Source of the DNA: Mariniblastus sp.
GTDB lineage: Bacteria; Planctomycetota; Planctomycetia; Pirellulales; Pirellulaceae
Length of the DNA stretch: 64,000 bases
Direction: 5' to 3'
Assembly (NCBI GenBank): GCA_022447605.1
Contig: JAKVBG010000001.1
Location: 1 to 64,000, forward strand
Of this stretch, positions 17,098 through 38,138 are shown one piece after another (position 1 is the first letter of the stretch; each line of letters begins with the position of its first letter). The notes below the pieces were generated by a model. The model made no database searches and was not told the DNA's origin. It saw only the letters and a program-made list of their open reading frames with translations. The position numbers were made by a program, and so were the translations under genes.

Positions 17098-17174
17098 TCA
17101 TGCAGGGTCGCTACAGGACGAAACCCGTACCGCCCTGGGGACCAATAACCCGGAATGAATGGGGGAGCAGATAA

Positions 17175-17429: not shown

Positions 17430-17484
17430 CGGCAAGCAACTGGCCACCCGGGACATCGCCTACCTCTCGAAGAGTACCGATAAA

Positions 17485-18330
17485 ATGAAATTCACGAAAA
17501 TGCACGGCGCAGGAAACGACTACGTTTACGTCAATTGTTTCCAAGAAAATCCACCCGACGACCCCGGTTCGCTAGCAGTTGCCGTCTCTGATCGCCATTA
17601 CGGGATCGGTTCGGATGGTCTGATTTTGATTATGCCCAGCGACCAGGCCGACGCCAAAATGAAGATGTACAATGCCGACGGAAGTGAATCCGAGATGTGC
17701 GGAAACGGCATTCGCTGTGTCGCTAAATACCTGGTCGACCATGACATCTGTGACAAACCCGCGTTACGGATTGAAACAGGGGCCGGGATCTTGGCATTGG
17801 ACGTGTTTCAACAAAACGGTAAAGTCCATCAGGTGCGTGTCGATATGGGGCCGCCCAAACTGGCTCCCCGTGAGATACCGATTCACTTACCTGGGGAGAC
17901 TGGCGAACAGGTCGTCGATATTCCCCTGGAACTGGATGAACTCCCCTTGACCGCAACGTGTGTTTCCATGGGCAACCCACATTGCATAATTTTTGTGGAA
18001 GCCCTGTCCGATGAACTGGTTTTGGGACTGGGCCCTCGAATCGAAAAGGATCCCCGCTTCCCATCACGGGTCAATGTCGAATTCGTCGAAATTTTATCAC
18101 GCTCCGAGGTACGTCAACGGACCTGGGAACGAGGTTCCGGGGAGACATTGGCATGCGGTACGGGCGCCAGCGCCGTCTGTGTGGCAGGTGTCATTTCAGG
18201 CAGAACCGAACGAAAACTGACCAACCATCTACGCGGTGGAACATTGCTCCTGGAATGGTCCCAGGAAACCAACCATGTTTTCATGACCGGGCCAGCAGCC
18301 GAAGTTTTCAGCGGCCAATGGCCAATTTAG
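17485..18330 (+). CDS. dapF: Diaminopimelate epimerase
   Basis: 281 residues, the family's length. DapF interconverts LL- and meso-diaminopimelate for lysine and peptidoglycan synthesis, without cofactor, using two cysteines. Both are present: Cys72 in [15 protein letters not shown] and Cys224 in [19 protein letters not shown]. Other signatures: [13 protein letters not shown] at the start, [19 protein letters not shown] and [17 protein letters not shown] lies upstream of the start ATG. Presence of dapF fits a cell with peptidoglycan. An acyltransferase gene follows 42 bases later. Confidence 0.95.
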
Positions 18331-18372
18331 AACATTAACGGAATACAGGTTTTTCAGGTAAAAGAATCAGGC

Positions 18373-19176
18373 GTGTCACAACAGGATCCCACCTTAGCGC
18401 AAAAGATGATCGGTAAGCTGACCGCACTTACGGTACCACCCGTGATGGCGCGCCTGGTCGATTTCCGACTTGCCTTCTACGATCCATCCACAGAACTAGG
18501 ACGCCCTATTTTCAATGAACACGTGATTTTCGTGTTCTGGCACGAGTATATTTCGATCGCCCTGGGCTGTTGGGGACACCTGCCGCTAAGCGTCCTGATC
18601 AGCCAGCATCGGGATGGCGAGTGGGTGTCCCAGGTGGCAGAGTCGATGGGGATGCAGGTGGTCCGAGGCAGCTCGACAAGGGGTGGATCCGGAGCCATTC
18701 GCCAGTTAAAGAAAAACTCCCTTTTTACCAGCCTGGCCATTACCCCTGATGGACCGACAGGCCCCCGTCGAGAGATGGCCATGGGCCCGATCTACCTGGC
18801 AAAGATGTTACAGATGCCAATTGTCCCCATCGGTATCGGGATGGAGAACCCCAAGCGTTTGAATACCTGGGATGAATTCGCGCTGCCTCGACCCTTTTCC
18901 CGGTGCCGGGCCATCTTCGGGCCGAAGATCCGGGTCGACCGAAGAGCGAGTCGACAGGATCTGGAATCGACCAGGAAAAAGAGCCAGGCCCTGCTCATCG
19001 ATCTGGGCAATTGCGCTGAAGAATGGTCCCAACAAGGTTACAGGATGCGCGGGGAGAAGCGTTTCGCCCGGGTCGGGCGCCGCCGGCGACTCGTATTTAC
19101 GCCCCCCCCCAAACCAGTGGCCCAGCCTTCGTCGCAGCCTGACTTGTCGATCGATCGAGTCCGCTCAGCCGCCTAG
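18373..19176 (+). CDS. DUF374-type lysophospholipid acyltransferase family protein
   Basis: 267 residues with a GTG start at 18373. The segment IFVFWHEYISIALGCW carries the 'W-H' of the DUF374/LpxL-like group (in place of the H-x4-D of PlsC), followed by PLSVLISQHRDGEWVSQVAE, then VRGSSTRGGSGAIRQLKK and the conserved AITPDGPTGPRREMAMGPIYLAKM block, which is diagnostic for DUF374 proteins. The family is thought to acylate lipid A-like or lysophospholipid substrates at the inner membrane. The C-terminal 50 residues are basic and Pro/Ser-rich and not conserved. It lies 42 bases after dapF on the same strand, followed by an 8-bp perfect hairpin. Confidence 0.85.
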   Translation: MSQQDPTLAQKMIGKLTALTVPPVMARLVDFRLAFYDPSTELGRPIFNEHVIFVFWHEYISIALGCWGHLPLSVLISQHRDGEWVSQVAESMGMQVVRGSSTRGGSGAIRQLKKNSLFTSLAITPDGPTGPRREMAMGPIYLAKMLQMPIVPIGIGMENPKRLNTWDEFALPRPFSRCRAIFGPKIRVDRRASRQDLESTRKKSQALLIDLGNCAEEWSQQGYRMRGEKRFARVGRRRRLVFTPPPKPVAQPSSQPDLSIDRVRSAA

Positions 19177-19178
19177 TC

Positions 19179-19202
19179 TTTCCCCGGCGTTTATCGGGGA
19201 AA
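19179..19202 (+). terminator. Hairpin directly after the acyltransferase stop
   Basis: Perfect 8-bp stem TTTCCCCG (19179-19186) / CGGGGAAA (19195-19202), starting three bases after the stop codon. No T-run follows, so it may be an RNA stabiliser or a factor-dependent stop rather than an intrinsic terminator. Confidence 0.4.
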
Positions 19203-19294
19203 CCGCACCGAGATCCTCACCATCGGATCGCGCCTGACCGCTTTGCTCCGGACCGGCCAAAGCCGACCCGTTAACTCGACAGGGCGTCCAATTT

Positions 19295-19522
19295 ATGGGA
19301 TTTTTTTCCAATATTAAGGAATTTATCAGGCCGACCAGAGTGCTCACTGTTTATAGTGGAGAGGTTGGCGAGTCACCTCAGGTTTCCCTGGGTGGCCCGC
19401 CGGAGGGATTTGTGCCGCTTGCAGCCTTAACTGCTAAAGAGCATCTGGTCGCCGCAACAAGTTTGAAAAACGCTGTTGCCTCTGCTTCTGCTAAGCGTGC
19501 GAATCCGTTTTTGAACCCTTAG
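19295..19522 (+). CDS. Small hypothetical protein upstream of the cystathionine synthase gene
   Basis: 75 residues (MGFFSNIKEFIRPTRVLTVY...KRANPFLNP). No transmembrane segment, no known motif; weak ribosome binding site (AGGGCG about nine bases upstream). It ends 15 bases before the next gene, which favours a real, translationally linked small gene. Composition is ordinary for the region, apart from a T-rich start. Function unknown; it could be a leader peptide for the methionine/cysteine gene, but no run of Met or Cys codons is present to support attenuation. Confidence 0.4.
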   Translation: MGFFSNIKEFIRPTRVLTVYSGEVGESPQVSLGGPPEGFVPLAALTAKEHLVAATSLKNAVASASAKRANPFLNP

Positions 19523-19537
19523 TTCGGAATACGGAAA

Positions 19538-20788
19538 ATGTTAATACGAGCCATCGACGCGATTAACCAAGACGAGCAACACGTTCCCGGAAGACCCAAG
19601 AGCCTCGAGCCCGGATTTTCTACCCTATCGGTGCATGCCGGTGAACAGCGCCAGAAACCGATCAACTCGATTACCGACCCGATCGTTTGCGCCTCAACTT
19701 ACACCTTTCAGGACACGCAGGCCGTTATTGACTATATCGAGCAGGACCAGGATCGGGGTGAGTACGGACGCTACGGCAACCCGGGCGAACAGGTTGTCGA
19801 ACGAAAACTGGCAGCGCTCGAGGGTGCCGAAGAGGCGATCCTCTATTCGAGCGGCATGGCGGCCATGGTCGGACTGCTGACGGCCAAACTGTCGGCCGGC
19901 GACGAGGTCATTTTCTTTGACGAGTGCTACCATCGCAGTCGTCAGTTTTGCACCCAGCATCTCTCGCGATTCGGAGTCGTCACGCGAACGGTAAAGACAG
20001 GCGATTACCGGGCGATGGAAGCGGCCATCAACAGCAACACCAAAATGCTGATTTCGGAATCACCCACCAACCCGCATTTGAGTATCGTGGACCTGGAGCA
20101 ATTTGCCGCGATCGGGAAACGACATCGAGTCGACACCCTGATCGATGCTACCTTGGCTACCCCATTCAATGTCCGACCGATTGAGTTTGGCGTCGACTTC
20201 GTGATGCACTCGGCAACCAAGTACTTTGGAGGCCACAATGATCTGCTGGCCGGCGTCGTGGCCGGAAGCAAGCAAAAATTGGCCGAGGTCCGCGACCTGC
20301 GCGGAATCCTGGGATCGGTCAATTCGGCTCATAACGTCTACCTGCTGGAACGGGGATTGAAGACGTTTGAGCTGAGGATGCAGCGGCACAACGAAAATGG
20401 CCAGCGTGTGGCGGAGTTCCTGGAAAATCACCCGGCCGTTTCCCGCGTTCTCTACCCGGGTCTCCGCTCCCACCGGGACCATCAGTTAGCCCAGCAAACG
20501 ATGAGAGGGTTTGGTGGGCTGATCACGTTTGAACTGGACCAAGCAGACTGGCGCCAGACAGCGCAAGTCGTCGACCGTGTCCAGGTTGCCCGTATCGCTC
20601 CGAGCTTGGGAGGCGTCGAGTCACTGATCGAACAACCGCTGGTGATGAGCTATTACCATTACCCGCCAGCCGAGCGAGCCAAGTTTGGAATCAGCGACAA
20701 CATGATCCGCCTGGCATGTGGCATTGAGAACAGCCAGGACCTGATTGATGATCTAGCCCAAGCCCTGGCACGGGTCGACCGGACCTGA
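19538..20788 (+). CDS. Cystathionine gamma-synthase-family PLP enzyme (trans-sulfuration)
   Basis: 416 residues of the Cys/Met-metabolism PLP-dependent family. Signatures: the N-terminal FSTLSVHAGEQ, the YGRYGNPGEQVVERKLAALE segment, SSGMAAM near the cofactor phosphate, and the Schiff-base Lys228 in HSATKYFGGHNDLLAG. The C-terminal block APSLGGVESLIEQP is conserved in the family; the Glu of 'GVE.L' is typical of cystathionine gamma-synthases and lyases. It would make cystathionine from an activated homoserine and cysteine, or catalyse a related elimination; sequence alone does not separate synthase, lyase and sulfhydrylase. I therefore give no symbol. The gene is 15 bases after a 75-residue frame and converges on a Cys-rich protein gene. 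Confidence 0.85.
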   Translation: MLIRAIDAINQDEQHVPGRPKSLEPGFSTLSVHAGEQRQKPINSITDPIVCASTYTFQDTQAVIDYIEQDQDRGEYGRYGNPGEQVVERKLAALEGAEEAILYSSGMAAMVGLLTAKLSAGDEVIFFDECYHRSRQFCTQHLSRFGVVTRTVKTGDYRAMEAAINSNTKMLISESPTNPHLSIVDLEQFAAIGKRHRVDTLIDATLATPFNVRPIEFGVDFVMHSATKYFGGHNDLLAGVVAGSKQKLAEVRDLRGILGSVNSAHNVYLLERGLKTFELRMQRHNENGQRVAEFLENHPAVSRVLYPGLRSHRDHQLAQQTMRGFGGLITFELDQADWRQTAQVVDRVQVARIAPSLGGVESLIEQPLVMSYYHYPPAERAKFGISDNMIRLACGIENSQDLIDDLAQALARVDRT

Positions 20789-20855
20789 TTGTCGACGTTG
20801 AACTCAGGTTGATTGGTAAACAGCGCGATACCAGGACAACCTTACGCGAGCCGGT

Positions 20856-21626
20856 TTAACGTCGCTGCACTGGGGCAGCATTCGCCTCTTGCGATCGGCT
20901 CCGTTGATTCGGGCGGACAGAGATCAAACCCTCCCTCGTGGCAAAACGTTCGCCAAAACTGGCAGGCGGTGCCGGAACCGCTCCCGCTGAAGACTGGCCA
21001 ACCTGGCCTCCGCTGCCGCTGGCCGGGCGGACCTGGCGATCAAGCTTGATCTTAGCGGAGGACTCCGTTTTCGGCTGAGGTGGCACGGGTGGCTGATGGG
21101 CTGCCGCTGGAACCGGCGAAGCCGGGTGCACCGGCGCGATTGTCCCGTCCGACGAGCAGCCGCTTTGACAATCACCACCATTGCTACATCCTGTTTGACA
21201 ACCTTGGCTGCAACTGGCCGCACATGGCCCCACACAATTGCAGGAAGTCGGCCCCATCGAGACAGAGCTGTTGCTACAGCCGGAACAGCCATCAATAATC
21301 CTCTGCTTGGCTGCCCTCCAGTCGCGATTCAGCTGGTACGGAGTGATCGGGCAGGGCGGAATCGGATCAATCGTCTGGTATTTCCAGTAAATATAGGGAG
21401 AGTACCGTTTCTGTTCCTCTTCTTCACAAGGGAAGAACAATCCTGTACGCCCCGCCTGCCAGTTCCAAATAACACTTCGCGTCTGGGGATCATCCGGCTG
21501 GAATTGGCGAAACGGGTTGAGGCAATAGTCCTGAATCGTCTTGACCAGTTGTTGAGCCTCGCATTCCGCGTTGCTACCTGAGAAAACCAGCAGAATCAGG
21601 CCGAAGAAAACCGCTCTTTTAAGCAT
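20856..21626 (-). CDS. Cys-rich secreted protein of unknown function
   Basis: 256 residues. Signal peptide at residues 1-24 (MLKRAVFFGLILLVFSGSNA). The mature N-terminal part (about residues 30-110) contains CLNPFRQF, SVIWNWQAG, FFPCEEEEQKRYSPYIYWKY and CPITPYQLNRDW. A cluster of about 14 Cys in pairs and 'C-S-x-x-C' arrangements occupies residues 112-160, then a Pro/Ala/Gln-rich tail. The Cys cluster suggests disulfide cross-linking in the cell envelope or metal binding, in line with the Cys-rich wall proteins known from planctomycetes. I recognise no named domain. A second secreted Cys-rich protein is encoded at 53268. Confidence 0.7.
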   Translation of the reverse strand: MLKRAVFFGLILLVFSGSNAECEAQQLVKTIQDYCLNPFRQFQPDDPQTRSVIWNWQAGRTGLFFPCEEEEQKRYSPYIYWKYQTIDPIPPCPITPYQLNRDWRAAKQRIIDGCSGCSNSSVSMGPTSCNCVGPCAASCSQGCQTGCSNGGDCQSGCSSDGTIAPVHPASPVPAAAHQPPVPPQPKTESSAKIKLDRQVRPASGSGGQVGQSSAGAVPAPPASFGERFATREGLISVRPNQRSRSQEANAAPVQRR

Positions 21627-21924
21627 GTCGAAGGTACCCCATGGAAGTTGCGTACGTTCCTGCTGATCGTCCCCGAAGAGTCCATTTATCCGATGTTTTT
21701 ATCCGATCCATTAAACTCCGGCTTAGTTGATTGGCTTGACTGGTTTACCCAGTCTCAAAGCGATTTCCGCACCGAAACGCGTTGCTCAACGGCTAGAAAA
21801 ATGTGCAAACTGCAGCTATCCAAGGGGAAATGAGTTCAATCCGGCTGCCGATGTCCCCATCCAAGGGGTGGAGAGTCGGGAACGGGCCACCACCATTGCA
21901 GCATCCAAGTATCCCCTGCCACTG

Positions 21925-22287
21925 CGGAAAATTGGTGCCGTTTCCTCTCTGAACACCGAACCGCCAGTCTGCGGCTTGGAATCGCTAGCAGGTGGTTATG
22001 AGATCATCTACGACCTGCCCAGTCGGGATTGGCCGACGGGCTGCGACGGACTGGAAACGGGCGGGCTGGCAACGGGCGAGCTGGACGTCGCCCTGCTCCC
22101 CGTGATGGAAGCGGTTTGCAACCCGCAATACACCATCATTTCCGATGGGACCCTCGCTTGCCGCGGACCTGTGCGGAGCGTCAAAGTGATCGGTCGCGTT
22201 GAACCAGAACGGATCGAACCGCACGCGCTCGACGACAGCTCACAAACGAGTATTGCCCTGATCAAAATCCTGCTGTTCGACGGATAA
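21925..22287 (+). pseudogene. mqnA: Truncated and scrambled remnant of mqnA (chorismate dehydratase, futalosine pathway)
   Basis: The frame RKIGAVSSLNTEPPVCGLES ... YEIIYDLPSR ... TGELDVALLPVMEAVCNPQYTI ... LACRGPVRSVKVIGRVEPERI ... ALDDSSQTSIALIKILLFDG matches the N-terminal half of MqnA, which normally reads 'IGAVSYLNTKPLV.GL', 'DLPSRLAD.L..GELDVALIP' and 'ACRGPVRSV', 'LD..SRTS.ALA..LL'. About 120 of the usual ~280 residues remain; the homology stops dead at the stop codon, and neither of the other two forward frames continues it over the next 110 bases. Decay signs: SYLNTKPL has become SSLNTEPP, and after DLPSR there is a 27-base excess made of a 2-base insertion plus tandem 10- and 15-base duplications. 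MqnA dehydrates chorismate to 3-[(1-carboxyvinyl)oxy]benzoate. A longer frame opens upstream at 21727, but its first 66 codons have no MqnA similarity. Confidence 0.75.
22034..22080 (+). repeat. Tandem duplications inside the mqnA remnant
   Basis: CGACGGGCTG (22034-22043) is repeated as CGACGGACTG (22044-22053), and the 15-mer at 22051-22065 (CTGGAAACGGGCGGG) is repeated at 22066-22080 (CTGGCAACGGGCGAG, two mismatches). These sit exactly where MqnA normally has the short LAD.L..GEL segment and account for its lengthening. Confidence 0.85.
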
Positions 22288-22355
22288 GAGTCTCCGCTAT
22301 CAAACATCAGCTGAGGAATGCTTCAATGGCAGCTGTCTATTTTGGTTTTTTAAGG

Positions 22356-22378
22356 TGGCCATTAAAAACGCATGGCCA
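22356..22378. repeat. Inverted repeat downstream of menE
   Basis: TGGCCAT (22356-22362) and ATGGCCA (22372-22378) form a 7-bp stem around an A-rich loop in the 117 bases between the mqnA remnant and menE. It could end the men transcript (minus strand) but no T-run follows on that strand. Confidence 0.4.
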
Positions 22379-22404
22379 ATGCTGCAAAGAAGGACTTGTT
22401 GTGT

Positions 22405-23742
22405 TTAGCCCGAAATAAGCCGTTGCAAGTGGATTCGATCAGGTTTGATCTGTGTGTCGGTGCCCGAAGGCCAAGGATGGATTTCAAAAGGCACTTCATA
22501 ATTTGGGAGCAACTGCATTATTTTTTCTTTCCAGTCCATTGGCAATGTACCATCAACGAAAGCGACAGGGCGCGCACCGAATTCTTTGTCTGGCGATGGA
22601 ACGACAATGACCTGCTCAACATTGAACAAGGTGGTCATCGCTCGCTCAATATTTTCCGGATGGATGTTCTCGCCTCCTGAGATGAACATGTTGTCTATCC
22701 GACCGCTCACGACAAGTTCTGAATTTCCATTGAGAGCTCCGATATCGTTTGTTTGAAACCAGCCATCTTGGTTGACCAAGGATTGGATTTCACCTTTCTG
22801 CAAGTAGCCAAGGGCCAGTGTTTCACCCCGAACAAGGATTTCACCTGTTGAAGAGATCTGGAGCTGTCTGTTTTCGAGTAGTTTACCGCTTGCTTTGGGA
22901 GTCCCATCTGCTGCCGAAGTTGTTACTTGTGATGCCATTTCACTTAGTCCATACGTTGTTCTTACATCAACACCCCGATTTCTCGCCGTCTCTACCAGTT
23001 TTGGATCAATCGAGCTTCCACCGAGAAGAACGGTGCGAAGATATTGAGAAGGAAACGTTTTTTCAGCAAGCAACCGGCGCAGCTGGGTTGTCACCACAGA
23101 GAGATGTGTGACTTTCAGTTTTTCCAGCGCATGGGCGTTAAGTTCCTGGTCGACAGGCAAGCCGACAACGGTCGCACCGGCTGTCGCGCAGCGAATGAGG
23201 ATCGACAATCCGCTTATATGATAGAGTGGCAATGACCACAGCCACCGATCGCCCGATTCCAGGGGGATGATCTCAGCGGCTCCCGTCGCACTGGCAATAT
23301 GTGCCGACATCGCGTGCACAATTGCTTTAGGCTGTCCGGTACTTCCGGAGCTGAAAATGAGAGTGGCCGGCTGCTGCGGATCGCCATCTGTTTTGGAATT
23401 AACAAATGTGCGCTGCACCTTGTCCTTGCTGTTGAGCATCGATTTCAGCGACTTTGCATTAATCTGTTCCGCCATCTCGCAGCGTTTGCTGTTGGAAATG
23501 CGAGAACTGATGGGGCAAGTGACGCACCCTCGTTGCTGCAAGGTCCAGAAATTTAAAAAAGAGTCAAAATCATTCTCAGGAGACCAAGCGATATAGTCCC
23601 CAACATCGATATTTGCGAGTTGCATGATGGCAGATTCGGCGAGTGCTGCTTGAAGCGAGCCGTATTGAATTTGGATTTTGCCGTCGTCATACGCCAGCTG
23701 ATTCCTGTGGTGATTGATTGAAGATTCAATAGGCGAAATCAT
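22405..23742 (-). CDS. menE: o-Succinylbenzoate--CoA ligase (MenE)
   Basis: 445 residues, ANL-superfamily adenylating enzyme. It activates o-succinylbenzoate to OSB-CoA before ring closure by MenB. Motifs: P-loop TLIFSSGSTGQPKAIVH (core A3), LPLYHISGL, LLGGSSIDPKLVE, TTYGLSEMAS (A5), WFQTNDIG (A7) and SGRIDNMFISGGENIHPENIE (A8 hinge). The usual catalytic A10 Lys is probably the Lys in TQIKPDRIHL near the end. MenE-type short length and the GGSSID segment favour MenE over other acyl-CoA ligases, and the context settles it. The start ATG overlaps the menC stop by four bases (ATGA at 23739-23742), implying translational coupling. It is the last gene of the operon. Confidence 0.92.
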   Translation of the reverse strand: MISPIESSINHHRNQLAYDDGKIQIQYGSLQAALAESAIMQLANIDVGDYIAWSPENDFDSFLNFWTLQQRGCVTCPISSRISNSKRCEMAEQINAKSLKSMLNSKDKVQRTFVNSKTDGDPQQPATLIFSSGSTGQPKAIVHAMSAHIASATGAAEIIPLESGDRWLWSLPLYHISGLSILIRCATAGATVVGLPVDQELNAHALEKLKVTHLSVVTTQLRRLLAEKTFPSQYLRTVLLGGSSIDPKLVETARNRGVDVRTTYGLSEMASQVTTSAADGTPKASGKLLENRQLQISSTGEILVRGETLALGYLQKGEIQSLVNQDGWFQTNDIGALNGNSELVVSGRIDNMFISGGENIHPENIERAMTTLFNVEQVIVVPSPDKEFGARPVAFVDGTLPMDWKEKIMQLLPNYEVPFEIHPWPSGTDTQIKPDRIHLQRLISG

Positions 23743-24662
23743 AATACGATCTCCTCTAATTCAATCGTATTTACATCGACTTGTCGTGGAGTGGTGAGCA
23801 GGCCATCTTGTTTTTGCAGCGACTCCGGAAAAACGTCATTGGCCAACCAGTCGAGCGTGTCCAGGCCTGCTGGTATGTCAGGCGAAAATTCGGCGGCCAA
23901 TTGCATGATGCGCCTGATCCCTACGCCTGATTCAAATGCAGCACTGAAGACAATCGGCTTGCCTGACAGGGCGAGTTTCGCTACGGCTTGTCGTCCCCCC
24001 AGAAGAGTTGGCTTGCAAACCAAGGCGGCTGCGTTGGGCCAGGGGTCAAGACAGTCAGTCTGAACAAGTGATTCATCAAGTGCATAGCTGACGCCTGTCA
24101 GGTGAAAGAGTTCTTCCATGCGGAGAGGATCTCGCAAGGGCTCTTCGATATACTCAAAATCGAGATCGCCAAGAGATTCAATGAAGAATACTGCCTCTTC
24201 AAAATCCCATGATTGATTTGCATCTAAACGGAGTTGGATATTGCCAGGGAGAGCTTGACGCACCTCCTTTACCAGCTTGACATCCGATTCGAGTGAATCT
24301 TGCCCCACCTTCATTTTGACAGCTTTGCATTTTGAAAGCTGGCAATCGATTGTTCTTTCGGCGATCTCTTCCGAATCGCCCAGTAGCAGAAAGTTATAGG
24401 GAACGGAAATGGGTGCCGCAAAAGGTTCGTTCAAGGCTGACAAGGCAAACATGAGTGACGCGGGTGGCTTTTGTTTGCCGCGAAGTTTGCCGCGAAGACT
24501 GGCAACAACGTCGTCAACCGTTTCCAGGCTGAACCCGGGCAGGGGCGATGCCTCTGCCCATTGTCCATTGCGTTCCAGCAGCACACCTTGTCGGTCTGCA
24601 TAAATCCGACCTTTTAAAAGGATCGGATTCTTGAAGGGGATTTGAAATCGAAAGGCTCTCAT
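23739..24662 (-). CDS. menC: o-Succinylbenzoate synthase (MenC)
   Basis: Enolase-superfamily enzyme that dehydrates SHCHC to o-succinylbenzoate. I place the start at the ATG at 24662 (MRAFRFQIPFKN), which overlaps the menA stop as ATGA (24659-24662); an upstream in-frame ATG at 24731 would add 23 residues lying inside menA and is not needed. About 307 residues, the usual length. Active-site motifs of the barrel domain are visible: KAVKMKVG (K-x-K), LRLDANQSW (Asp), EYIEEPL (Glu), YALDESL (Asp) and LVCKPTLLGG (Lys), in the order expected for the MLE/OSBS subgroup. Followed immediately by menE with a four-base overlap. Confidence 0.92.
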   Translation of the reverse strand: MRAFRFQIPFKNPILLKGRIYADRQGVLLERNGQWAEASPLPGFSLETVDDVVASLRGKLRGKQKPPASLMFALSALNEPFAAPISVPYNFLLLGDSEEIAERTIDCQLSKCKAVKMKVGQDSLESDVKLVKEVRQALPGNIQLRLDANQSWDFEEAVFFIESLGDLDFEYIEEPLRDPLRMEELFHLTGVSYALDESLVQTDCLDPWPNAAALVCKPTLLGGRQAVAKLALSGKPIVFSAAFESGVGIRRIMQLAAEFSPDIPAGLDTLDWLANDVFPESLQKQDGLLTTPRQVDVNTIELEEIVL

Positions 24663-25525
24663 CCAAGCCCCAATCCGAAACAAAACAGTATTGTGAAAAG
24701 CAATAGAATCCCAGCCGTCATTCCCAAGCATGGGCGGAGCTCGGCTCCACTGGAACGCCAGACTTTTCTAATCAACAGCAGTCCGGGAATGATAATCAAA
24801 GAGGCAATCGCTGGGGGCCAGGAATTTTGGTTGATGGCAAAGATTACAGGAACAATCGCAGCACCCAGCATGCATGCCGCATATTGATAACGACTGAATG
24901 TTGCTCCGAAGCGGACGGCCAGCGTTCGTTTGCCAGCGATTTGATCTTCATCAATATCACGCAAATTGTTCACAACCAGTAATCCAGTAGATATTAACCC
25001 GGGGCCAAGGCCCGCAAGGATGGTTGTTTCGTCAAACTGAAGAGATTGAATGTATTGCGTCCCCGCAACAGCGACAGGTCCGAAAAAGATGAGGACAAAG
25101 GGATCTGCGATTCCCAGATAGGCTAATGAGAAACGCCCAGCTGTGTAGGCAATCCCCAGAAGGATGCTTAATGCACCTAACAGCAGAAACGGCCATCCGG
25201 CACGGAGGTACAGGAGCCACGCAGAGCCACCAGCAATTGCAAAAGCAATGATGGTTGCGACCAGCATTGCTCGCGGTGAAATGAGTCCTGACTGAACGGC
25301 TCGCGCCGGACCTTTGCGAGATTCGGTGTCTGCTCCTTGGTGAAAATCACAGTAGTCGTTGCAGAAATTGGTTCCGACTTGGATTGAGACTGCACATAGC
25401 AATGTTGCCAGCAATGCCAGCAGATAAAACTCACCATCGACCAGTGCCATCTGTGTTCCGATTGCCACTGGAGAGAGAGCCGCCAAGAGTGTTTTAGGCC
25501 GTGCAGCAAGGAGCCAATGTTTCAT
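24659..25525 (-). CDS. menA: 1,4-dihydroxy-2-naphthoate polyprenyltransferase (MenA)
   Basis: 288 residues, UbiA-superfamily integral membrane prenyltransferase with about eight to nine hydrophobic segments. It attaches the isoprenoid chain to DHNA at the inner membrane. The first Asp-rich motif is in TNFCNDYCDFHQGADTE and the second in VVNNLRDIDEDQIAGKRTLA, the MenA versions of the N/D-x-x-D sites for the Mg-diphosphate; the latter block is specific for MenA. The N-terminus MKHWLLAARPKTLLAALSPV is also typical ('W..A.RP.TL.A...PV'). It ends in a four-base overlap with menC. Confidence 0.93.
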   Translation of the reverse strand: MKHWLLAARPKTLLAALSPVAIGTQMALVDGEFYLLALLATLLCAVSIQVGTNFCNDYCDFHQGADTESRKGPARAVQSGLISPRAMLVATIIAFAIAGGSAWLLYLRAGWPFLLLGALSILLGIAYTAGRFSLAYLGIADPFVLIFFGPVAVAGTQYIQSLQFDETTILAGLGPGLISTGLLVVNNLRDIDEDQIAGKRTLAVRFGATFSRYQYAACMLGAAIVPVIFAINQNSWPPAIASLIIIPGLLLIRKVWRSSGAELRPCLGMTAGILLLFTILFCFGLGLG

Positions 25526-25583
25526 GATCGAATGTTTGATTCTTCAAGTCATTGATACTGTGTTGGCAATTGCCCCGCACCGG

Positions 25584-26489
25584 CTAAAAGTGGTAGGGAT
25601 AGCCGGACCAATTCGGCTTCCGCTTCGCTAAAAAAGCATCTCGTCCCTCCTGGGCTTCTTCGGTGCCATAGGCAAGGCGAGTCGCTTCCCCCGCAAATAA
25701 CTGCTGGCCAACGAGTCCGTCATCGGCAAGATTGAAAGCGTACTTGACCATTCTCTGAGCGGTCGGGCTTTTGGCACAGATCTCATCAGCCCATTGCAGA
25801 GATGCCGTTTCAAGTTGTTCATGCGGCACCACCAAATTGACGGCACCCTGATCTTTTGCCTCTTGAGCAGAATACGTTTTCCCCAGGAAAAATATTTCAC
25901 GGGCAACTTTTTGACCAACCTGTTTAGCCAGATAGGCCGATCCAAATCCGCCGTCAAAACTGGCGACGTCCGTATCGGTCTGTTTGAACTTGGCATGTTC
26001 CCTCGAGGCTATTGTGAGATCACAAATCACATGCAGACTGTGGCCACCTCCAACGGCCCAACCAGGCACGGCACAGATAACGACCTTTGGCATCATGCGG
26101 ATGAGTCGTTGGCATTCGAGAATATGCAGTCGACCCGCACGAGGTGCTGTCGTGGCTTGATTTTCGTTTTGCTCGTATTCGTACCCCGCCTTGCCTCTCA
26201 CCTTTTGGTCGCCACCGGAACAAAAAGCCCATCCTCCATCTTTGGGCGAAGGCCCATTGCCAGTGAGAATAACGGCTCCTATATCACTTGACTGGCGAGC
26301 GTGATCCAATGCGGCGTAAAGTTCATCGACGGTATGTGGGCGAAAAGCATTTCGAACTTCGGGGCGATTAAACGCGATGCGAACCGCGTTGACCTCTTTG
26401 GCTCGGTGGTACGTAATATCTGTGAAACGGAATTGCTCAAATTCATTCCACAGGTTTGGATCAAAAATATCAGAGACTGACGCTGGCAT
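25584..26489 (-). CDS. menB: 1,4-dihydroxy-2-naphthoyl-CoA synthase (MenB), Asp-containing type
   Basis: 301 residues, crotonase fold. It closes the second ring of the naphthoquinone from OSB-CoA. Signatures: FCSGGDQKVRGKAGYE (oxyanion-hole and CoA site), PGWAVGGGHSLHVICDLTIAS, FKQTDTDVASFDGGFGSAYL, and the C-terminal AQEGRDAFLAKRKPNWSGYPYHF. The 'QTD' where E. coli has 'QTG' supplies the carboxylate side chain of the type II enzymes, which need no bicarbonate; E. coli is type I. The overall wording of these blocks closely matches my memory of Mycobacterium MenB, including the unusual central YEYEQNE...RAGRLHILE region. The gap to menH is about 100 bases, the largest in the operon. Confidence 0.95.
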   Translation of the reverse strand: MPASVSDIFDPNLWNEFEQFRFTDITYHRAKEVNAVRIAFNRPEVRNAFRPHTVDELYAALDHARQSSDIGAVILTGNGPSPKDGGWAFCSGGDQKVRGKAGYEYEQNENQATTAPRAGRLHILECQRLIRMMPKVVICAVPGWAVGGGHSLHVICDLTIASREHAKFKQTDTDVASFDGGFGSAYLAKQVGQKVAREIFFLGKTYSAQEAKDQGAVNLVVPHEQLETASLQWADEICAKSPTAQRMVKYAFNLADDGLVGQQLFAGEATRLAYGTEEAQEGRDAFLAKRKPNWSGYPYHF

Positions 26490-26593
26490 CGGAATGCTTA
26501 CTTAATGAACGAGATGAAAAAAATTGCAAACCAGGGTGCAACAATTTTGAAATTGGATGATTTAGGATAACCTTCAGGTATCGATCGCACCAT

Positions 26594-27310
26594 CTATCTT
26601 AGACAAGATAAGTATTCGCGAATTGAATCGGTAAGTTTTCCGGGCTGCTCGCGGTGAACGACGTGTCCACATTCGGTAAAGATCTTAACTCGCGATAGCG
26701 GGGACTGGCTTCTTTTGATACAGCGAACCGCAATTTTGGCGTACTTTTCATCGGCTTCTCCGGCAACCGCCAAAACGGGAATGTTTAGATTTTCTATTTC
26801 TGGCCAATAATTCGGTTGCTTTGCGATTGAATTGACGCGCATTACTTTTGGCCAAGCCTCGGAGCAGTAGGTTGATTTTCGAATGATCTCATCCGATCGT
26901 ACGGCAATTGGTGTATGAGAGAATACGTCTTGTTCGTACCAGTCCCGCAAAAAGGAAGCCTTGCTCTCCGATTCAATTCTTTGCGCCCATTTCTGATCCG
27001 CTTGCCATCGTTGTTTGCGATGAGAATCAGATTCCAGGCCGGGATTACCCGAGATAAGAACCAGTCCGATTGATTGGCTGTTTGCCAACAAGGATGTTCC
27101 CAGGGCAAGTCGAGCACCCATGGAGTACCCGATCAGGACTGAATTTTGCGGAACCGCATCAGCCAAAATATGGATGTTGTCTTGCCAACTGTCTGCCGTT
27201 GGAATTTCCAAACCAATCGAATCATAACCGGAGAGTTCGCTCCGCAATTTGTCAAAGTCACAAGCGAGCCCCATGAATCCGGGCATGAAAATTAGAGTTG
27301 GACGCTGCAC
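26594..27310 (-). CDS. menH: SHCHC synthase (MenH), alpha/beta hydrolase
   Basis: 238 residues. It eliminates pyruvate from SEPHCHC to give SHCHC. The start is a GTG at 27310, inside the end of menD (19-base overlap), preferred because the first core strand RPTLIFMPGFMG directly follows; the next ATG (27286) would cut it. The nucleophile elbow is GYSMGAR with Ser63; NIPVLAVAGEADEKY holds the acid Asp region and FTECGHVVHREQP the catalytic His. 'GFMG' matches the oxyanion strand of MenH. Family-level identification as MenH rather than another hydrolase rests on the position between menD and menB. Confidence 0.88.
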   Translation of the reverse strand: MQRPTLIFMPGFMGLACDFDKLRSELSGYDSIGLEIPTADSWQDNIHILADAVPQNSVLIGYSMGARLALGTSLLANSQSIGLVLISGNPGLESDSHRKQRWQADQKWAQRIESESKASFLRDWYEQDVFSHTPIAVRSDEIIRKSTYCSEAWPKVMRVNSIAKQPNYWPEIENLNIPVLAVAGEADEKYAKIAVRCIKRSQSPLSRVKIFTECGHVVHREQPGKLTDSIREYLSCLR

Positions 27311-29043
27311 TTGGAAATCTCTTCTCTGATTTTTTGTCGGACTTCGAGATTCTGTTGACGATGGGTCACTAATTCAAGCATGACAGACTGATTGCTTGAG
27401 AGTGCTTCGGCGTAATTTTTTGAAAGGTCATCCATTGTTTCGATGCAGCGGTAATCGATACCAAACATTTCGGCCGCGCTGTTGAATTGATATGTGTGGG
27501 GTGTTGCGAAATATTCTTCGAAATGGGCAGACTCCCGCACCGGCAATAAATCGAAGATATGTCCGCCTCGATTATTGACAACCAAAATGATCATGGGCCA
27601 ATCGGACTTCGCTGCCAGGGATAGAGAATTAAGGTCGTGCAATGCTGAAAGATCTCCGAGCAGAACAGTTGTCGGCTGTCTGAGGCCGGCACAGTAGCCG
27701 GCGGCTGTCGCTATCAGTCCGTCAATGCCACTGGCGCCGCGGTTAGCCATAACCGAGCGAGGATCATTTGAAGTTCGGGCGCTGAACCAGTCCATGTCTC
27801 TGATGACCATGCTGTTTCCAATGAATAGTCCGTTGGATTTAGGACAGTTCTTACTCAAGAAATAGGCAATGGCCGGTTCGCTAAAACGTGTCGCCTGGTC
27901 CAAGTGGTGCTTGAGAATTTCGTCTCGGTTGTTGGCCGCTTTTTGCCATTTGCATGAAAATTCAGCTGTTGTTGATGGCCCAGAGATCTTGTCTGTCAGA
28001 TCTGAAAGAGGACTCACAAAACGTCGCAGATCAAGATGCTCTGGGTTAACCACCAAATCTTGTGGTGTGATATGGAAGTACTGCGTGTTTGAATCTCGCA
28101 GGCTGCTCGTCCATGGGTGCCACGATTTGGAGACGATTCGTCCTCCCAGATGCAAAATGGTGTCGGGAGCCGGAAGTGAAAATTCGGTCGGCAATTCGAA
28201 GGATGATTGGGTGAGGCCACTGGTGATGTCCGCAAGCAGAGGAGCTTGTAATTTTTGTGCCAGCTGCTGAGCTTCTTCGGCTTCTTCCGGATTGCATCGC
28301 CCCAAAGCGATGACCGTGTTGCCAGTCAATTCAATGCAAGTCTCATTTTTCGATTCGTCTCCGGGTGCGATGTCGAGCTGGCTTGCATCCGCAGCAGAAT
28401 GCTTTATGTGATCGTCGTGATCGATCGAAAACGGTTCGCGAAACATCCAGTTGAAATGAACAGGCCCTTTCCCAGCTGCCTCGAGTCCGGTCGTTAATTC
28501 TGTTAAAAGATACTGCAAGCCGTGCGGATCATCTTCGGTTTGTTGATCTTCTGGAACGGGCATGTGGCGGAATAGCTCGGGATATTCACCAAAGATGTTT
28601 TGCTGTTGAATTGTTTGGTTTGCTCCAACACCAAGCAGCTCCGGTGGGCGATCCGCCGTATATAACAGCAGCGGAGTTTTTTCCATTGCCGCTTCGATGA
28701 CGGCCGGGTACGCATTGGCAACGGCAGTCCCCGAGGTGCAGACAAAAACACCGGGCCGCCCGGTCGCTTTGCCAAATCCCAGGGCAGCAAAGGCGAGCCC
28801 TCGCTCGTCATAATGTCGGATGACGTGGGCGTCCGCATGTCTTGCGATGGCGAGCGTCAGTGGAGTGCATCGCGAACCTGGGGCAACGAAAAAATGATCG
28901 ATGCCATTTTGAATGCAACATTCAGTTATGAAATTGGCCCAGATTTCGTCAATCACTTTGCCGACTTTACCTTGATCGTGCTTTAGGATTTCAGTCCCGA
29001 TGTTTCCTGGAATCCCAACATAGCAGGACCTTCGCGACCGCAC
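27292..29043 (-). CDS. menD: SEPHCHC synthase (MenD), thiamine-diphosphate enzyme
   Basis: MenD is a ThDP- and Mg-dependent enzyme joining isochorismate and 2-oxoglutarate. Diagnostic motifs: APGSRCTPLTLAIA (MenD's PGSR.TPL), HYDERGLAFAALGFGKATGR with the ThDP-activating Glu, CTSGTAVANAYPAVIEA, LTADRPPELLGVGANQTIQQ, NSMVIRDMDWF and NRGASGIDGLIATAAGY...LGDLSALHDLNSL, which binds ThDP. The frame reaches a GTG at 29043 (583 aa), but the N-terminal 29 residues have no counterpart in MenD; an in-frame GTG at 28956 fits the family better. The stop overlaps the menH start by 19 bases. Confidence 0.93.
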   Translation of the reverse strand: MRSRRSCYVGIPGNIGTEILKHDQGKVGKVIDEIWANFITECCIQNGIDHFFVAPGSRCTPLTLAIARHADAHVIRHYDERGLAFAALGFGKATGRPGVFVCTSGTAVANAYPAVIEAAMEKTPLLLYTADRPPELLGVGANQTIQQQNIFGEYPELFRHMPVPEDQQTEDDPHGLQYLLTELTTGLEAAGKGPVHFNWMFREPFSIDHDDHIKHSAADASQLDIAPGDESKNETCIELTGNTVIALGRCNPEEAEEAQQLAQKLQAPLLADITSGLTQSSFELPTEFSLPAPDTILHLGGRIVSKSWHPWTSSLRDSNTQYFHITPQDLVVNPEHLDLRRFVSPLSDLTDKISGPSTTAEFSCKWQKAANNRDEILKHHLDQATRFSEPAIAYFLSKNCPKSNGLFIGNSMVIRDMDWFSARTSNDPRSVMANRGASGIDGLIATAAGYCAGLRQPTTVLLGDLSALHDLNSLSLAAKSDWPMIILVVNNRGGHIFDLLPVRESAHFEEYFATPHTYQFNSAAEMFGIDYRCIETMDDLSKNYAEALSSNQSVMLELVTHRQQNLEVRQKIREEISKCSVQL

Positions 29044-29066
29044 ATCACTCTAAGTCTACTTGAGGA

Positions 29067-30422
29067 CTATGATTGTCCAAGCACGTTGATAAAGTCCTGA
29101 ATCTTGTTGTCCACTTCTTGCCATTCCTGAGCCGGTTCAGAGCCTCGCACGATTCCGGCTCCAGAAAAGAGACTCATTTCGTCATTGTTTACCAGCCCAG
29201 AACGAATCGCTACGGCGAAATGAATACTGTCGCTGCCGATCCAGCCGAGCGGGCCAGCGTACCAGCCACGGCTAAATGGCTCGAGACGGGCAATTTCAGG
29301 TAACGCATTGTCTGTTGGGTAACCGCCCACGGCAGGTGTGGGGTGCAGTCGTTTGAGAAGCATCCCATCATCGACATCTGGTTTTAATGTGCCTTCCACA
29401 TTCGATTTGAGATGCTGTTTCTGTGCCAAGCGCAGGATCGATGCCTGAGAATCAACGCTTAAATGATCGACAAATTTATGCAGTTTCTGCCGAATGCTTT
29501 TTCGCACGATGTCGTGTTCTCGCTGATCTTTGTCGCTTGTCAACAATTCGATAGCAAGTTTTTCGTCTGCCGATGGGTTCTCGCCTCTCATTCGTGTTCC
29601 CGCGATAACTTCACTTTCGAGGCGAACTCCCTGACGGTAAAAAAGCCGTTCTGGCGTGGCACCCACAAAGGCGCTACCCTTTTCAAAATTGAAACAGAAA
29701 ACGTAGCAATCATGCGTAGCCGTTTGAAGTGCGGAGGCTAAGTGGATCGGGTTGAGAGCGTCTTCGAATTTGAGAACGGTCTTTCGAGAAAGAACAATCT
29801 TTTCCAATACTTCACTTCGAATGAGTGAAAGGGCTTCGTCAATTCGAGATTGCCACCCATCAAACGCAGGTGCGTAACTTGTCGATTTGACGGCAGGGAA
29901 ATCTGAATCAAAGGGAATAGGCTGAAATGACATTTGTTGCACATCGAGTTTCGCCTGCTCGATATCGGCCGCACTGGTAACGGTTAATGTCAGTGTGTCT
30001 TTTGACAAAATGATTCGAGGCAGAATAAATCTTCCGGCACCGAATCCATCCCAGTTGGCTGCAGAGGCATTAAAGGAAAACCCGCCGTAGAACTTGAGAT
30101 GCGGCTTGTCTTTCAAGATGGCACGGCACTGTGCAACGGAACATGAGAAGTCACTTTCATTTTTCAGATGGATGTCGACTGCAATGCCGAGCCCAACGGT
30201 CGCGCTGGAAGAATTGCGATCAACCCAGGCGACTTTTGCCAATGGTTGGTTAGCATTAAGCAATTCCCACACGCACAAGTCGGGATTTGGAACGCTAACT
30301 GAAACCGGGAAATCAGCATCGGTCGATGTCGCGACTAGCGATTCAAGTTTCTCCAGAATCGTAGAGACGAGGCCCGACCCTTGATCTGAGCGGACATCAA
30401 ATTTCATATCGTTCTTATTCAT
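29067..30422 (-). CDS. menF: Isochorismate synthase (MenF)
   Basis: 451 residues of the chorismate-utilising family. It converts chorismate to isochorismate, the entry step of the classical pathway. The C-terminal catalytic domain shows VLEKIVLSRKTVLKF (the conserved 'KVVLSR'), GSAFVGATPERLF, SEVIAGTRMRGENPSADEK, EHDIVRKSIRQKL, VEGTLKPDVDDGMLLKRLHPTPAVGGYP and GWYAGPLGWIGSDSIHFAVAIRS, all typical of MenF/EntC. The first 200 residues are the usual poorly conserved lid. M1 and M6 both could start. It is the first gene of the operon, with menD beginning 24 bases after its stop. Confidence 0.93.
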   Translation of the reverse strand: MNKNDMKFDVRSDQGSGLVSTILEKLESLVATSTDADFPVSVSVPNPDLCVWELLNANQPLAKVAWVDRNSSSATVGLGIAVDIHLKNESDFSCSVAQCRAILKDKPHLKFYGGFSFNASAANWDGFGAGRFILPRIILSKDTLTLTVTSAADIEQAKLDVQQMSFQPIPFDSDFPAVKSTSYAPAFDGWQSRIDEALSLIRSEVLEKIVLSRKTVLKFEDALNPIHLASALQTATHDCYVFCFNFEKGSAFVGATPERLFYRQGVRLESEVIAGTRMRGENPSADEKLAIELLTSDKDQREHDIVRKSIRQKLHKFVDHLSVDSQASILRLAQKQHLKSNVEGTLKPDVDDGMLLKRLHPTPAVGGYPTDNALPEIARLEPFSRGWYAGPLGWIGSDSIHFAVAIRSGLVNNDEMSLFSGAGIVRGSEPAQEWQEVDNKIQDFINVLGQS

Positions 30423-30872
30423 TTGACGTCAAAATCTGGATTCGATTTTGTAGATTTAAAGTCAGGAACTTAACGCCACAAAAAGGGATTGGCAACATTA
30501 AAAGAGGGCTCACACGAGATCTTATCCATTTTCCCTTTGATTTTCGGACCCTCCAAGCTGACCGAACTTAAAGTCTCCTGATAACAGATGAAAACGCTGG
30601 AACACCGCTTTCATCGGTGCCTATGCTTGCCCCGTCTATCGTTTATACACAGCATATTCATCAGCCAAACGGAGAGACTGAGATCCGTGATTTGGAATCT
30701 TTTTGGTGAGCGAAGTCTTCCCCCTTTTGATTTTCAGCGCGCGTACGTCCGACGTGTTGTGCTTCGGCATATTTACGGTCGTCACCACTGACCTTCATCG
30801 AGCAAAACGCTGGACCGCTCCCAACGGGGCGGCCAATTTTTCGCTTAAAAAGAGAGGCACTTAACCGAGAGG
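30423..30872. promoter_or_regulatory. Upstream region of the men operon
   Basis: 450 bases without a supported gene. A possible minus-strand promoter is TTGCCA (30490-30495) with TAAGTT (30467-30472) 17 bases away, about 45 bases upstream of the menF start; the -10 is a poor match. The 67-residue frame at 30588-30791 resembles nothing, in particular not the missing C-terminal half of MqnA. The right boundary of the AT-rich men segment lies somewhere in this interval. Confidence 0.35.
30815..30841 (+). terminator. Intrinsic-terminator-like hairpin, plus-strand orientation
   Basis: CCGCTCC (30815-30821) pairs with GGGGCGG (30826-30832, one G-T pair) around a 4-base loop, followed within five bases by T5 on the plus strand. 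No intact plus-strand gene ends here; it may be left over from the gene that occupied the site before the men operon, or serve as the end of the minus-strand FHA gene. Confidence 0.55.
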
Positions 30873-32096
30873 TTAAAAGCCTGGATCCAGGTTGTTGAAT
30901 TTGCCAATTTTCAACAGTTCCTTGAGCAGCTCGGCGGGGGTGGCAAACCGGTCTTCCGGCTCCTTGGCCAGCAGTTTCATGACAACATCCTGGAACAGAT
31001 CATCGACGGCCAGCTGGAATGACTTGGGAGACTTGGGGAGCTCGGTCCGCACATTGGCGACCAGCTCGGTTAAACCATCACCACTGATGGGCGGCGTGCC
31101 GGTCAACAGGGCATAACAGGTTGCGCCCAATCCATACATATCCGAACGCGTATCGACCGTCGCATCGGAACGTGTCCGCTCGGGTGCCAGGTACGGGATA
31201 TCACCGATGATCTGCCCGGGCTGGGTCACCTGTTGTGCCAGAGTTCCCTCGAGCGCCTTGGCCAGCATCAAGTCTCCCAACAGGCAAGCTTCGTCGCTCT
31301 TGCGACGGATAATGTTCATGGGTGTCACATTTCGATGGATGATCTTGCAATCATAGGCATCGTTCAGCGCCTGCCCGATATCTACCGCTACGCGCCACAC
31401 TTTTCGCCAATCCAGCATACCCTCGATACCGATTCTCTCAATTTCCTCGGCCAGGTTTTCGCCCTCGATAAGCTCCATCGCGGCCCAACAGAAATCCCCC
31501 GTCTTGCCGGCGTTGTAGAGACGGATAATCCGCTCAGAGCGGACCGGAAGCATCGTCTTCATGGCGCGGACAAACCGCTGACGTTGTTCATCGTTCGAAG
31601 TATAGGATGGGGAGAGGACCTTGATCGCCGCCTGGCGACCCTTTTCCGTATCGGAACCCCGAAACACCATGCCGGAATTCCCGGAACCAATAATCTCCTC
31701 CAGCATGTAGGGCCCCATCTGGGAACCGACCAACTGAGGTAGCGAATGACTCGAAGCGGGAATCTCGGGCAATCCCTGGATCACCTCGGTAATCGCCTCT
31801 TCGTGCGGATCGGCGACGCGGAGTTCTGTGTCCCCAATCCTCACCAGGCAACCTTTCTGGATATTCAACTCTTCGACCGCCTGGCCGTCGACAAATGTGC
31901 CACTGCTACTCCCTTTGTCGACCAGGGTGATCTGGTCTGGCTGAACGCGCACCTCACAATGGACCCGCGAAACAGAGGGGTCATTAATCCGGGTATCACT
32001 CTGTTCGCCACGACCAATGACAAGTGCCTGGTTTTCATCAATGTCAAAGAATCGCCCCTTGGCAGGGCCCGAGACAACATTCAACCTGACTTTCAT
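30873..32096 (-). CDS. FHA-domain protein fused to a probable pseudokinase
   Basis: 407 residues. Residues 1-95 form a forkhead-associated domain (ALVIGRGEQSDTRINDPSVSRVHC with the phospho-Thr-binding R, S and H, then DKGSSSGTFVDG). From about residue 127 there is a Ser/Thr kinase fold: EEIIGSGNSGMVFRG loop, AAIKVL with Lys159, but the catalytic loop is HRNVTPMNII (Asn256 where catalytic Asp stands in HRD), and DFG is Asp275-Leu-Met. The helix-C Glu also seems absent (FVRAMKTM). C-lobe features (YLAPERTRSD, SDMYGLGATCYALLTGTPP) remain. So it probably binds but does not phosphorylate. It faces the intact kinase at 32464 across a divergent promoter region, suggesting a signalling pair. Confidence 0.85.
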   Translation of the reverse strand: MKVRLNVVSGPAKGRFFDIDENQALVIGRGEQSDTRINDPSVSRVHCEVRVQPDQITLVDKGSSSGTFVDGQAVEELNIQKGCLVRIGDTELRVADPHEEAITEVIQGLPEIPASSHSLPQLVGSQMGPYMLEEIIGSGNSGMVFRGSDTEKGRQAAIKVLSPSYTSNDEQRQRFVRAMKTMLPVRSERIIRLYNAGKTGDFCWAAMELIEGENLAEEIERIGIEGMLDWRKVWRVAVDIGQALNDAYDCKIIHRNVTPMNIIRRKSDEACLLGDLMLAKALEGTLAQQVTQPGQIIGDIPYLAPERTRSDATVDTRSDMYGLGATCYALLTGTPPISGDGLTELVANVRTELPKSPKSFQLAVDDLFQDVVMKLLAKEPEDRFATPAELLKELLKIGKFNNLDPGF

Positions 32097-32463
32097 GAAT
32101 TATCCTCTGTTGCGGTTCCGCTGATTGAACAACTGGTTTGATTGAACCTGCGTGACAATCATGATAAGCCTCTGGCGTGGCAATGGTAACCGCCGGTTTC
32201 GGATTTCCCTCCAGAATATGGAGTGAAATCAGGGGAGCAATCCGCCACCGGGTGAATGAAAATAGAAAGTCGTTGTTTTCTTCCATTTCACCCCTTCGGA
32301 AATACACGTTGCCCCGCGTGACGGTGTGAGCTTTACCGGCAACTTGTTCTTCGACCTGCATCGACCATGAATCAGCCAAGCGTTAGAATGGATATCTCGG
32401 CCAAACCAACCGGGTGGTTGCCGGAAAGGTGCGTGACCGTTTGAACCGGTATGAGCTCGTACG
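32097..32463. promoter_or_regulatory. Divergent promoter region between two kinase-family genes
   Basis: 367 bases between the outward-reading FHA-pseudokinase and Ser/Thr kinase genes. No gene is supported on either strand. I could not identify convincing -35/-10 pairs. Confidence 0.4.
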
Positions 32464-35280: not shown

Positions 35281-35430
35281 GCGACCACCTGATGGGGCAG
35301 GTTGAGGGAAAAGGCAACCCGCAGGACCAAACCCCGAGGCGAAAAGAATTCGTTTCTGGCGGTTCATCCCCGAAGTGCAACCGTACCGTCAACGGCACCG
35401 AGTTGGCCCAACCCCAGGGCCGAACTCCGC

Positions 35431-38092: not shown

Positions 38093-38138
38093 TCGAAACA
38101 CTGCGAAATGCAGTCGCTCGGCTCCAACCGGAAAAACT

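Follow-up and report, generated by a model that had tools for sequence, protein, structure and literature searches.

Probable in situ switch from the futalosine to the classical menaquinone route in a Mariniblastus-type planctomycete

Introduction

Bacteria make menaquinone (vitamin K2) by one of two different routes, the futalosine route encoded by the mqn genes or the classical Men route, in which the naphthoate precursor is made from chorismate, and switching between the two has occurred repeatedly. Where foreign genes come to occupy the chromosomal site of the function that they replace, one speaks of xenologous (in situ) gene displacement. Here, we describe a 64,000-nucleotide stretch of DNA (hereafter, the window) from Mariniblastus sp. 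(assembly GCA_022447605.1, contig JAKVBG010000001.1, positions 1–64,000, forward strand), in which a seven-gene men operon lies beside a truncated mqnA. Comparison with relatives leads us to propose that the Men route replaced the futalosine route in place in this planctomycete, a reading to which we assign a probability of about 0.88.

According to the accessible parts of PMC13386864, the two routes are largely exclusive (20 of 13,096 genomes hold both), some genomes have neither, and multiple switches on trees of Actinomycetota and former Deltaproteobacteria are read as transfer and loss, the reasons for which remain to be investigated. In the same parts, Planctomycetota is mentioned once, as a tree label, and no locus-level case is given. 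A table row of five Planctomycetes in the accessible portion of PMC3914697 is read by us as all having mqn genes, and that of PMC11707229 states that the futalosine pathway is absent from Pseudomonadota and that a single Magnetococcia genome holds five of the pathway's genes. No title or opening abstract describing such a replaced locus was found in the literature searched; one paper, on Bacteroidetes taxonomy (PMC6767994), mentions both Mariniblastus and menaquinone.

The window resembles the switching covered in the accessible parts of PMC13386864 and PMC3914697 in that the two routes to the quinone are largely exclusive and the switches are scattered. Whereas those sources, as far as accessible, deal with presence and absence on trees, the window contains one switch resolved to the base, within one Planctomycetota genus and with fossils of the old genes; relative to the switching already documented on trees, a locus-level case with fossils would appear to be what is new. 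As in xenologous displacement, the putatively foreign men genes occupy the site of the replaced function; unlike in xenologous displacement, the incoming genes and the mqn genes that they replace lack homology to each other. The window operon also shares its gene order with menG-linked men operons of other Pirellulaceae (G020, G031 and G110; genomes are given as G numbers, G000 being that of the window), but those lie just after menG/ubiE, while the window copy sits in the mqnAC slot and that of the relative G005 at a third site. Three near relatives present three states: G026 has the old route, G000 a switch with fresh fossils, and G005 a switch with the old locus nearly cleared. Base-level knowledge of the junctions makes it possible to test, within one genus, in what order the events came, for how long the routes overlapped and why the switch took place, and the case suggests that a pathway for a respiratory quinone can be exchanged at the very locus that encodes it.

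A men operon in the mqnAC slot

The seven men genes lie on the minus strand (22405–30422; from left to right menE, menC, menA, menB, menH, menD and menF) and are transcribed in the order menF-D-H-B-A-C-E, with menF first. The features of the slot are the following.

21916..22275, plus strand: mqnA relic, N-terminal ~120 codons, open frame (PF02621, genus profile, comparison with G026)
22034..22085, plus strand: short tandem copies giving an in-frame insertion in the relic (tandem-repeat comparison, MqnA alignment)
22275..22276, no strand: left junction, where collinearity with G026 mqnA ends and new DNA begins (blastn against G026)
22276..22394, no strand: junction DNA, carrying the relic stop at 22285–22287 (blastn of 22276–22404)
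22395..30611, no strand: block homologous to the G005 men operon (80% over 8237 columns)
22405..23742, minus strand: menE, o-succinylbenzoate-coenzyme A (CoA) ligase (TIGR01923, 334.7 bits, cut-off 330.15)
23739..24731, minus strand: menC, o-succinylbenzoate synthase (TIGR01927, 141.5 bits, cut-off 130.55)
24659..25525, minus strand: menA, 1,4-dihydroxy-2-naphthoate (DHNA) polyprenyltransferase (NF004751, 275 bits, cut-off 264)
25584..26489, minus strand: menB, DHNA-CoA synthase, long form (NF006186, 559.2 bits, cut-off 378)
26594..27310, minus strand: menH, 2-succinyl-6-hydroxy-2,4-cyclohexadiene-1-carboxylate (SHCHC) synthase (TIGR03695, 171.3 bits, below the cut-off of 208.55)
27292..29043, minus strand: menD, 2-succinyl-5-enolpyruvyl-6-hydroxy-3-cyclohexene-1-carboxylate (SEPHCHC) synthase (TIGR00173, 370.5 bits, cut-off 244.2)
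29067..30422, minus strand: menF, isochorismate synthase (TIGR00543, 331.6 bits, cut-off 224.75)
30612..30872, no strand: junction DNA outside the G005-homologous block

G026, the nearest genome by korA, has the gene order of the window (AsmA, dapF, DUF374, metB, a hypothetical gene, mqnA, mqnC, FHA kinase, kinase, ndk, korA and korB; neighbour names such as metB, dapF and korA were given by eye, without family search), with mqnA and mqnC intact exactly between the junctions and MenD not over the cut-off. An earlier reading of this DNA from sequence alone (the sequence-only reading) had suggested looking at this position in a relative without men, and an intact mqnA-mqnC pair is what stands there. 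Plus-strand blastn (query range 17001–40000, E 1e-3) shows window and G026 to be collinear over 17002–22275 (68%) and 30873–40000 (76%), without any match between; collinearity resumes at the 3′ end of the FHA/protein-kinase gene (30873). Between the junctions, G026 holds 1679 bases, which include the rest of mqnA and the whole of mqnC, versus 8597 bases in the window.

The G005-homologous block is the only match of 22001–31200 in L071, the contig that carries men in G005. Its ends lie 10 bases beyond menE and 189 bases upstream of menF, and therefore the shared unit is the operon plus its upstream region. Against the fetched loci, blastn of 22276–22404 gave no match better than E 2.7 outside itself, and for 30423–30872 all matches outside the block were at E 0.25 or worse. 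Neither of these junction pieces yielded a clear trace of MqnA or MqnC in shuffles and profiles.

The full, intact operon announced by the sequence-only reading is borne out: all seven reading frames are open and six products exceed their NCBIfam cut-offs, MenH being a clear best match yet under its own. The menC open reading frame (ORF) overlaps menA, so its true start is probably further in. The ratio of non-synonymous to synonymous divergence (dN/dS) is low (0.13 overall, 0.07–0.17 per gene), which argues that the men genes have been under purifying selection. Menaquinone would be made in G000 via the predicted Men route. Promoter- and terminator-like sites were not above those of shuffled sequences. 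As a separate observation, the window MenB (25584–26489) is closer to haloarchaeal MenB (66–71%) than to MenB of G123, G110, G031 and G126 (48–55%); since MenD and MenF of those Pirellulaceae fall into a single clade, an exchange of menB within the operon may have taken place.

The decaying mqnA

PF02621 (Pfam VitK2_biosynth), the profile used for MqnA and MqnD, matches residues 69–183 of the plus-strand ORF 21727–22287 (profile positions 3–111 of 252, E 4e-9, 36.8 bits vs a cut-off of 26). A genus MqnA profile of length 265, built from 12 intact MqnA, scores the relic at 129 bits over positions 2–108, which confirms both the MqnA similarity of the fragment and the N-terminal mqnA seen earlier on the plus strand; an NCBIfam search of the ORF at E 0.1 gave no match. 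The mqnA-like part starts near 21916, the first ~63 codons of the mechanical ORF being something other than mqnA. Homology to G026 mqnA ends at 22275, and the last codons and stop (22285–22287) fall in unrelated DNA. The sequence-only reading had mqnA cut off mid-protein at 22287: the truncation stands, while the cut proves to be a junction with new DNA after 22275 rather than a simple stop mutation.

The frame of the relic is open, and it lacks an ATG at the ancestral start. The tandem duplications reported earlier were recovered as short copies at 22034–22053 and 22047–22085, with an in-frame insertion of nine alignment columns (vs seven intact MqnA), and the change of SYLNTKP to SSLNTEP is likewise seen in the alignment. 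Measured against 15 intact MqnA (12 from the genus and three from other genera), 12 of 47 invariant columns are altered in the relic, three of which adjoin the insertion and depend on the alignment; in a leave-one-out control, each intact MqnA shows 0–4 such changes. Relic-only changes number 16–19 versus 2–4 for G026 (five outgroups), and non-synonymous change beyond that of G026 amounts to 0.06–0.11 per site (three outgroups). With half of the core synonymous divergence (dS) between G000 and G026 as yardstick (1.56 over four genes, near saturation), this suggests, as a rough estimate, that mqnA was released from constraint in about the last tenth of the G000 branch. Because the start codon is lost and 12 of 47 invariant residues are altered, yet no internal stop has arisen, the loss of mqnA looks recent.

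The remaining futalosine genes

The relic is the sole PF02621 match in the G000 assembly, and therefore neither an intact mqnA nor mqnD is seen there. No MqnC match was found in the whole assembly, and the MqnE model gave a single weak match (E 3.5e-4). A second, intact mqnA together with the other mqn genes elsewhere would have spoken against the sequence-only reading; the absence of intact mqnA, mqnC and mqnD and of a real MqnE agrees with the earlier claim that the old route was lost.

The G026 neighbourhoods of mqnBD and mqnE are syntenic in G000, on contigs C149 and C171. At the former, the mqnBD genes are gone (for mqnB, this ancestral locus is where we looked), and a 30-residue MqnD tail remains (MqnD 274–303, 70%, L151:8838-8927), with a score of 94 versus a shuffle best of 52 and a profile score of 17.5 bits versus a best of 2.6 in ~54 kilobases of background. 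A 14-residue MqnB-like stretch in G000 is marginal (equalled by 1 of 200 shuffles; 3.7 bits vs a background best of 6.1). The mqnE locus is emptied, with a suggestive 16-residue MqnE-like tail (47 vs a best of 45 in 200 shuffles). As fossils, the mqnA part and the MqnD tail are firm.

In G005, the emptied loci gave a weak MqnC tail (1 of 200 shuffles equalled it; 5.9 bits vs a background best of 4.1) and a weak MqnE piece (0 of 200 shuffles; 6.5 vs 4.7 bits). If these traces are genuine, the differing remains in the two genomes would point to separate losses. A 466-residue G026 gene next to mqnBD, for which G005 has a 48% relative, is likewise absent from the fetched G000 stretch of C149 (L151).

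Origin of the men operon

The horizontal origin of the window operon is strongly supported by composition, four-fold divergence and trees, in keeping with the acquisition by transfer that the sequence-only reading had proposed. GC content at third codon positions (GC3) is 0.47–0.52 in the seven men genes (mean 0.49) versus 0.57–0.73 in 18 other window genes (mean 0.67), the two ranges being apart, while men and core GC3 agree in G005 (0.53 vs 0.52) and in G020 (0.61 vs 0.63). At four-fold sites, the men genes of G000 and G005 have an identity of 0.553 (seven genes, 1081 sites) versus 0.299 for the core (10 genes, 1672 sites), with core identities of 0.420 for G000–G026 and 0.309 for G026–G005. 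Across the 15 pairs of six men-bearing genomes, only G000–G005 shows the excess, the other 14 pairs lying at 0.24–0.39, within the core range (for pairs with G015, four men genes were available, since a contig end interrupts its operon within menB). The donor is probably to be sought in a low-GC3 relative of G005 rather than in G005 (men dS between window and G005, 0.80). The G005 operon lies on another contig (L071), away from the mqnAC slot; its flanking permease has only 48–50% matches in G000 and G026, and no empty site could be demonstrated there. A separate point concerns the core GC3 of the window itself (0.67, 18 genes), which is well above that of G026 (0.56) and G005 (0.52) and suggests a composition shift in the G000 lineage.

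In a korA tree of 28 rows (27 of 28 genus genomes and G031), G005, G000 and G026 group together (100/100), with G000 and G026 paired. G020 stands beside G010, which has MqnC (100/100), G015 groups with G025 and G014 (95/97), and G012 stands alone on a long branch. In a 35-row MenD+MenF tree (23 of 80 loci and 12 Pirellulaceae), whose bootstrap is unsettled, the 12 Pirellulaceae operons fall into one clade (100/100) with window and G005 as sisters (100/100); the tree names no donor outside the family. An operon of another genus (G201:C209, L125) is nested among those of Mariniblastus (99/95); the Mariniblastus operons therefore form no clade of their own, which suggests transfer of men between genera. 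In G020, G015, G031 and G110, from two genera, men directly follows menG/ubiE (TIGR01934 over the cut-off in all four), a position that may be an older men site; in G012, menG (PF01209) is on the same contig as men, a few genes away.

Distribution of the two routes

Profile searches for PF02621, MenD, MqnC and MqnE covered 60 genomes, G000 and 59 relatives. MenD is over the cut-off in six, G000, G005, G012, G015 and G020 from the genus and G031 from another. PF02621 matches in 54, the relic included, and is absent from G005, G012, G014, G015, G020 and G031; five of the six MenD genomes thus have no PF02621 match, the sixth (G000) holds only the relic, and none of the 53 other PF02621 genomes has MenD over the cut-off. 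MqnC is over the cut-off in 48 genomes and MqnE in 52, with no MenD genome among either, although weak matches occur for MqnE in G000, G005 and G031 (E 1e-4 to 5e-4) and for MqnC in G020 (9e-5). On this distribution, no genome of the 60 shows both routes, and G014 shows neither. Besides G000, MqnC is under the cut-off in the PF02621 genomes G013, G023, G030, G046 and G047, a gap that we put down to contig ends as the candidate cause. Family-wide, MenD is found at E 1e-60 in 12 of 241 genomes, six of which (G103, G110, G123, G124, G126 and G201) lie outside the mqn scoring.

G014, of the same genus and ~91% complete, has no PF02621, MqnC or MqnE match and no MenD over the cut-off (L112, L113). 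As mqn occupies three loci and men a single one, it is likeliest a men genome whose operon has fallen in an assembly gap; a less likely alternative is that menaquinone synthesis has been lost.

How the replacement may have occurred

In the replacement that we propose, the ancestral locus would have read metB, hypothetical gene, mqnA, mqnC and FHA kinase, the order that comparison shows G026 to have kept. The mqnAC slot would then have been taken by a men operon whose source was a relative of the G005 lineage, presumably by recombination into the mqnAC locus; the 3′ part of mqnA would have gone, as would the whole of mqnC, in what may have been one step or two. The loss of mqnC would have ended the futalosine route, Men supplying the naphthoate precursor, and the mqnA stump, mqnBD and mqnE, now useless, would have decayed or been deleted; the fossils are there to see, and the order is our reconstruction. 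The data fit either an insertion that itself broke mqnA or a men operon that made mqn dispensable.

Several points weigh against this proposal. Men is at this site in none of the seven other men-bearing genomes compared (G005, G020, G012, G015, G201, G031 and G110), and therefore the order of gain and loss is unseen; the sequence-only reading had named the same operon here in relatives without mqnA as a finding that would speak against it, and none of the seven shows this. No transfer mechanism emerged: the 64-kilobase window has no transfer RNA gene, and no long repeat flanks the insert, the repeats within 21500–31200 being two-copy pairs that are short or imperfect (no search aimed at mobile-element genes was made). 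Support for the G000+G026 pairing is moderate (86/76), the bootstrap of the Men tree is unsettled, and the suggestive MqnE tail of G000, which scores −0.5 bits with a profile of 11 MqnE, is not counted as a fossil. Finally, the G000 assembly comprises 203 contigs (4,991,973 bases, 94.1% complete, 4.2% contaminated).

Both routes might instead have been present in the ancestor of G000, G026 and G005, with differential loss (of men in G026, of mqn in G000 and G005) and a later move of men within the genome into the dead mqn locus, without transfer between species. The sister operons of the closely related G000 and G005 would suit this, and the place after menG/ubiE in G020, G015, G031 and G110 could be an old inherited site. 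However, vertical descent predicts equal silent divergence, and the men identity of 0.553 exceeds not only the matching core value of 0.299 but even the 0.420 of the G000–G026 core; generally slow men four-fold sites are contradicted by the other 14 men pairs, men GC3 is unlike that of the host, and 0 of 53 other PF02621 genomes has MenD over the cut-off. On four-fold sites and GC3 we reject vertical inheritance of men since the G000–G005 ancestor, and we regard the differential-loss account as unlikely.

Even less probable is a foreign men contig joined in by chimeric assembly or contamination. Contig number and contamination would allow it, as would an operon composition unlike its surroundings, but both joins fall within one conserved gene order and remove mqnA-3′ and mqnC, the mqnA stump is degenerate, and two further contigs, syntenic in other respects, have lost mqnE and mqnBD, an MqnD fossil remaining on one of them; on junction collinearity and the emptied loci we reject the chimera. 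That the mqnA fragment was retained as a short protein with a function is scarcely credible: its open frame without internal stop would agree with this, but the ancestral ATG is gone, a tandem insertion is present, 12 of 47 invariant positions are altered and only part of the domain remains, decay features on which we reject the idea.

Beyond the replacement in G000, we tentatively suggest, at somewhat less than even odds, that the Pirellulaceae men operon behaves as a self-sufficient travelling cassette that displaced the futalosine route several separate times in one genus. Here it would have landed in the locus that it rendered redundant, and one recombination may have removed the old route and brought in the new. 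Several displacements are envisaged because the korA tree has G000, G005, G020, G015 and G012 in separate places, in some cases next to sisters with the futalosine route.

Flanking genes

Window genes were compared by tblastn with 20 fetched loci and then with 11, two of which overlap earlier ones. The immediate neighbours of the slot are as follows.

19538..20788, plus strand: metB-like gene in the left neighbour region (87% identical and in the same order in G026; in 8 of 12 genus loci with intact mqnA)
20856..21626, minus strand: conserved hypothetical gene before mqnA (in 12 of 12 genus loci with intact mqnA and 0 of 3 other-genus loci)
30873..32096, minus strand: FHA/protein-kinase gene (PF00069 and PF00498; 85% identical in G026, where it follows mqnC)

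G005 has the same neighbours, without mqnA, mqnC or men there, and about 830–870 bases remain. This slot holds a 193-residue ORF (L108:7010-7591) that gives a weak P-loop match (PF01202, 25.5 bits vs a cut-off of 22.1; PF13238 under the cut-off).

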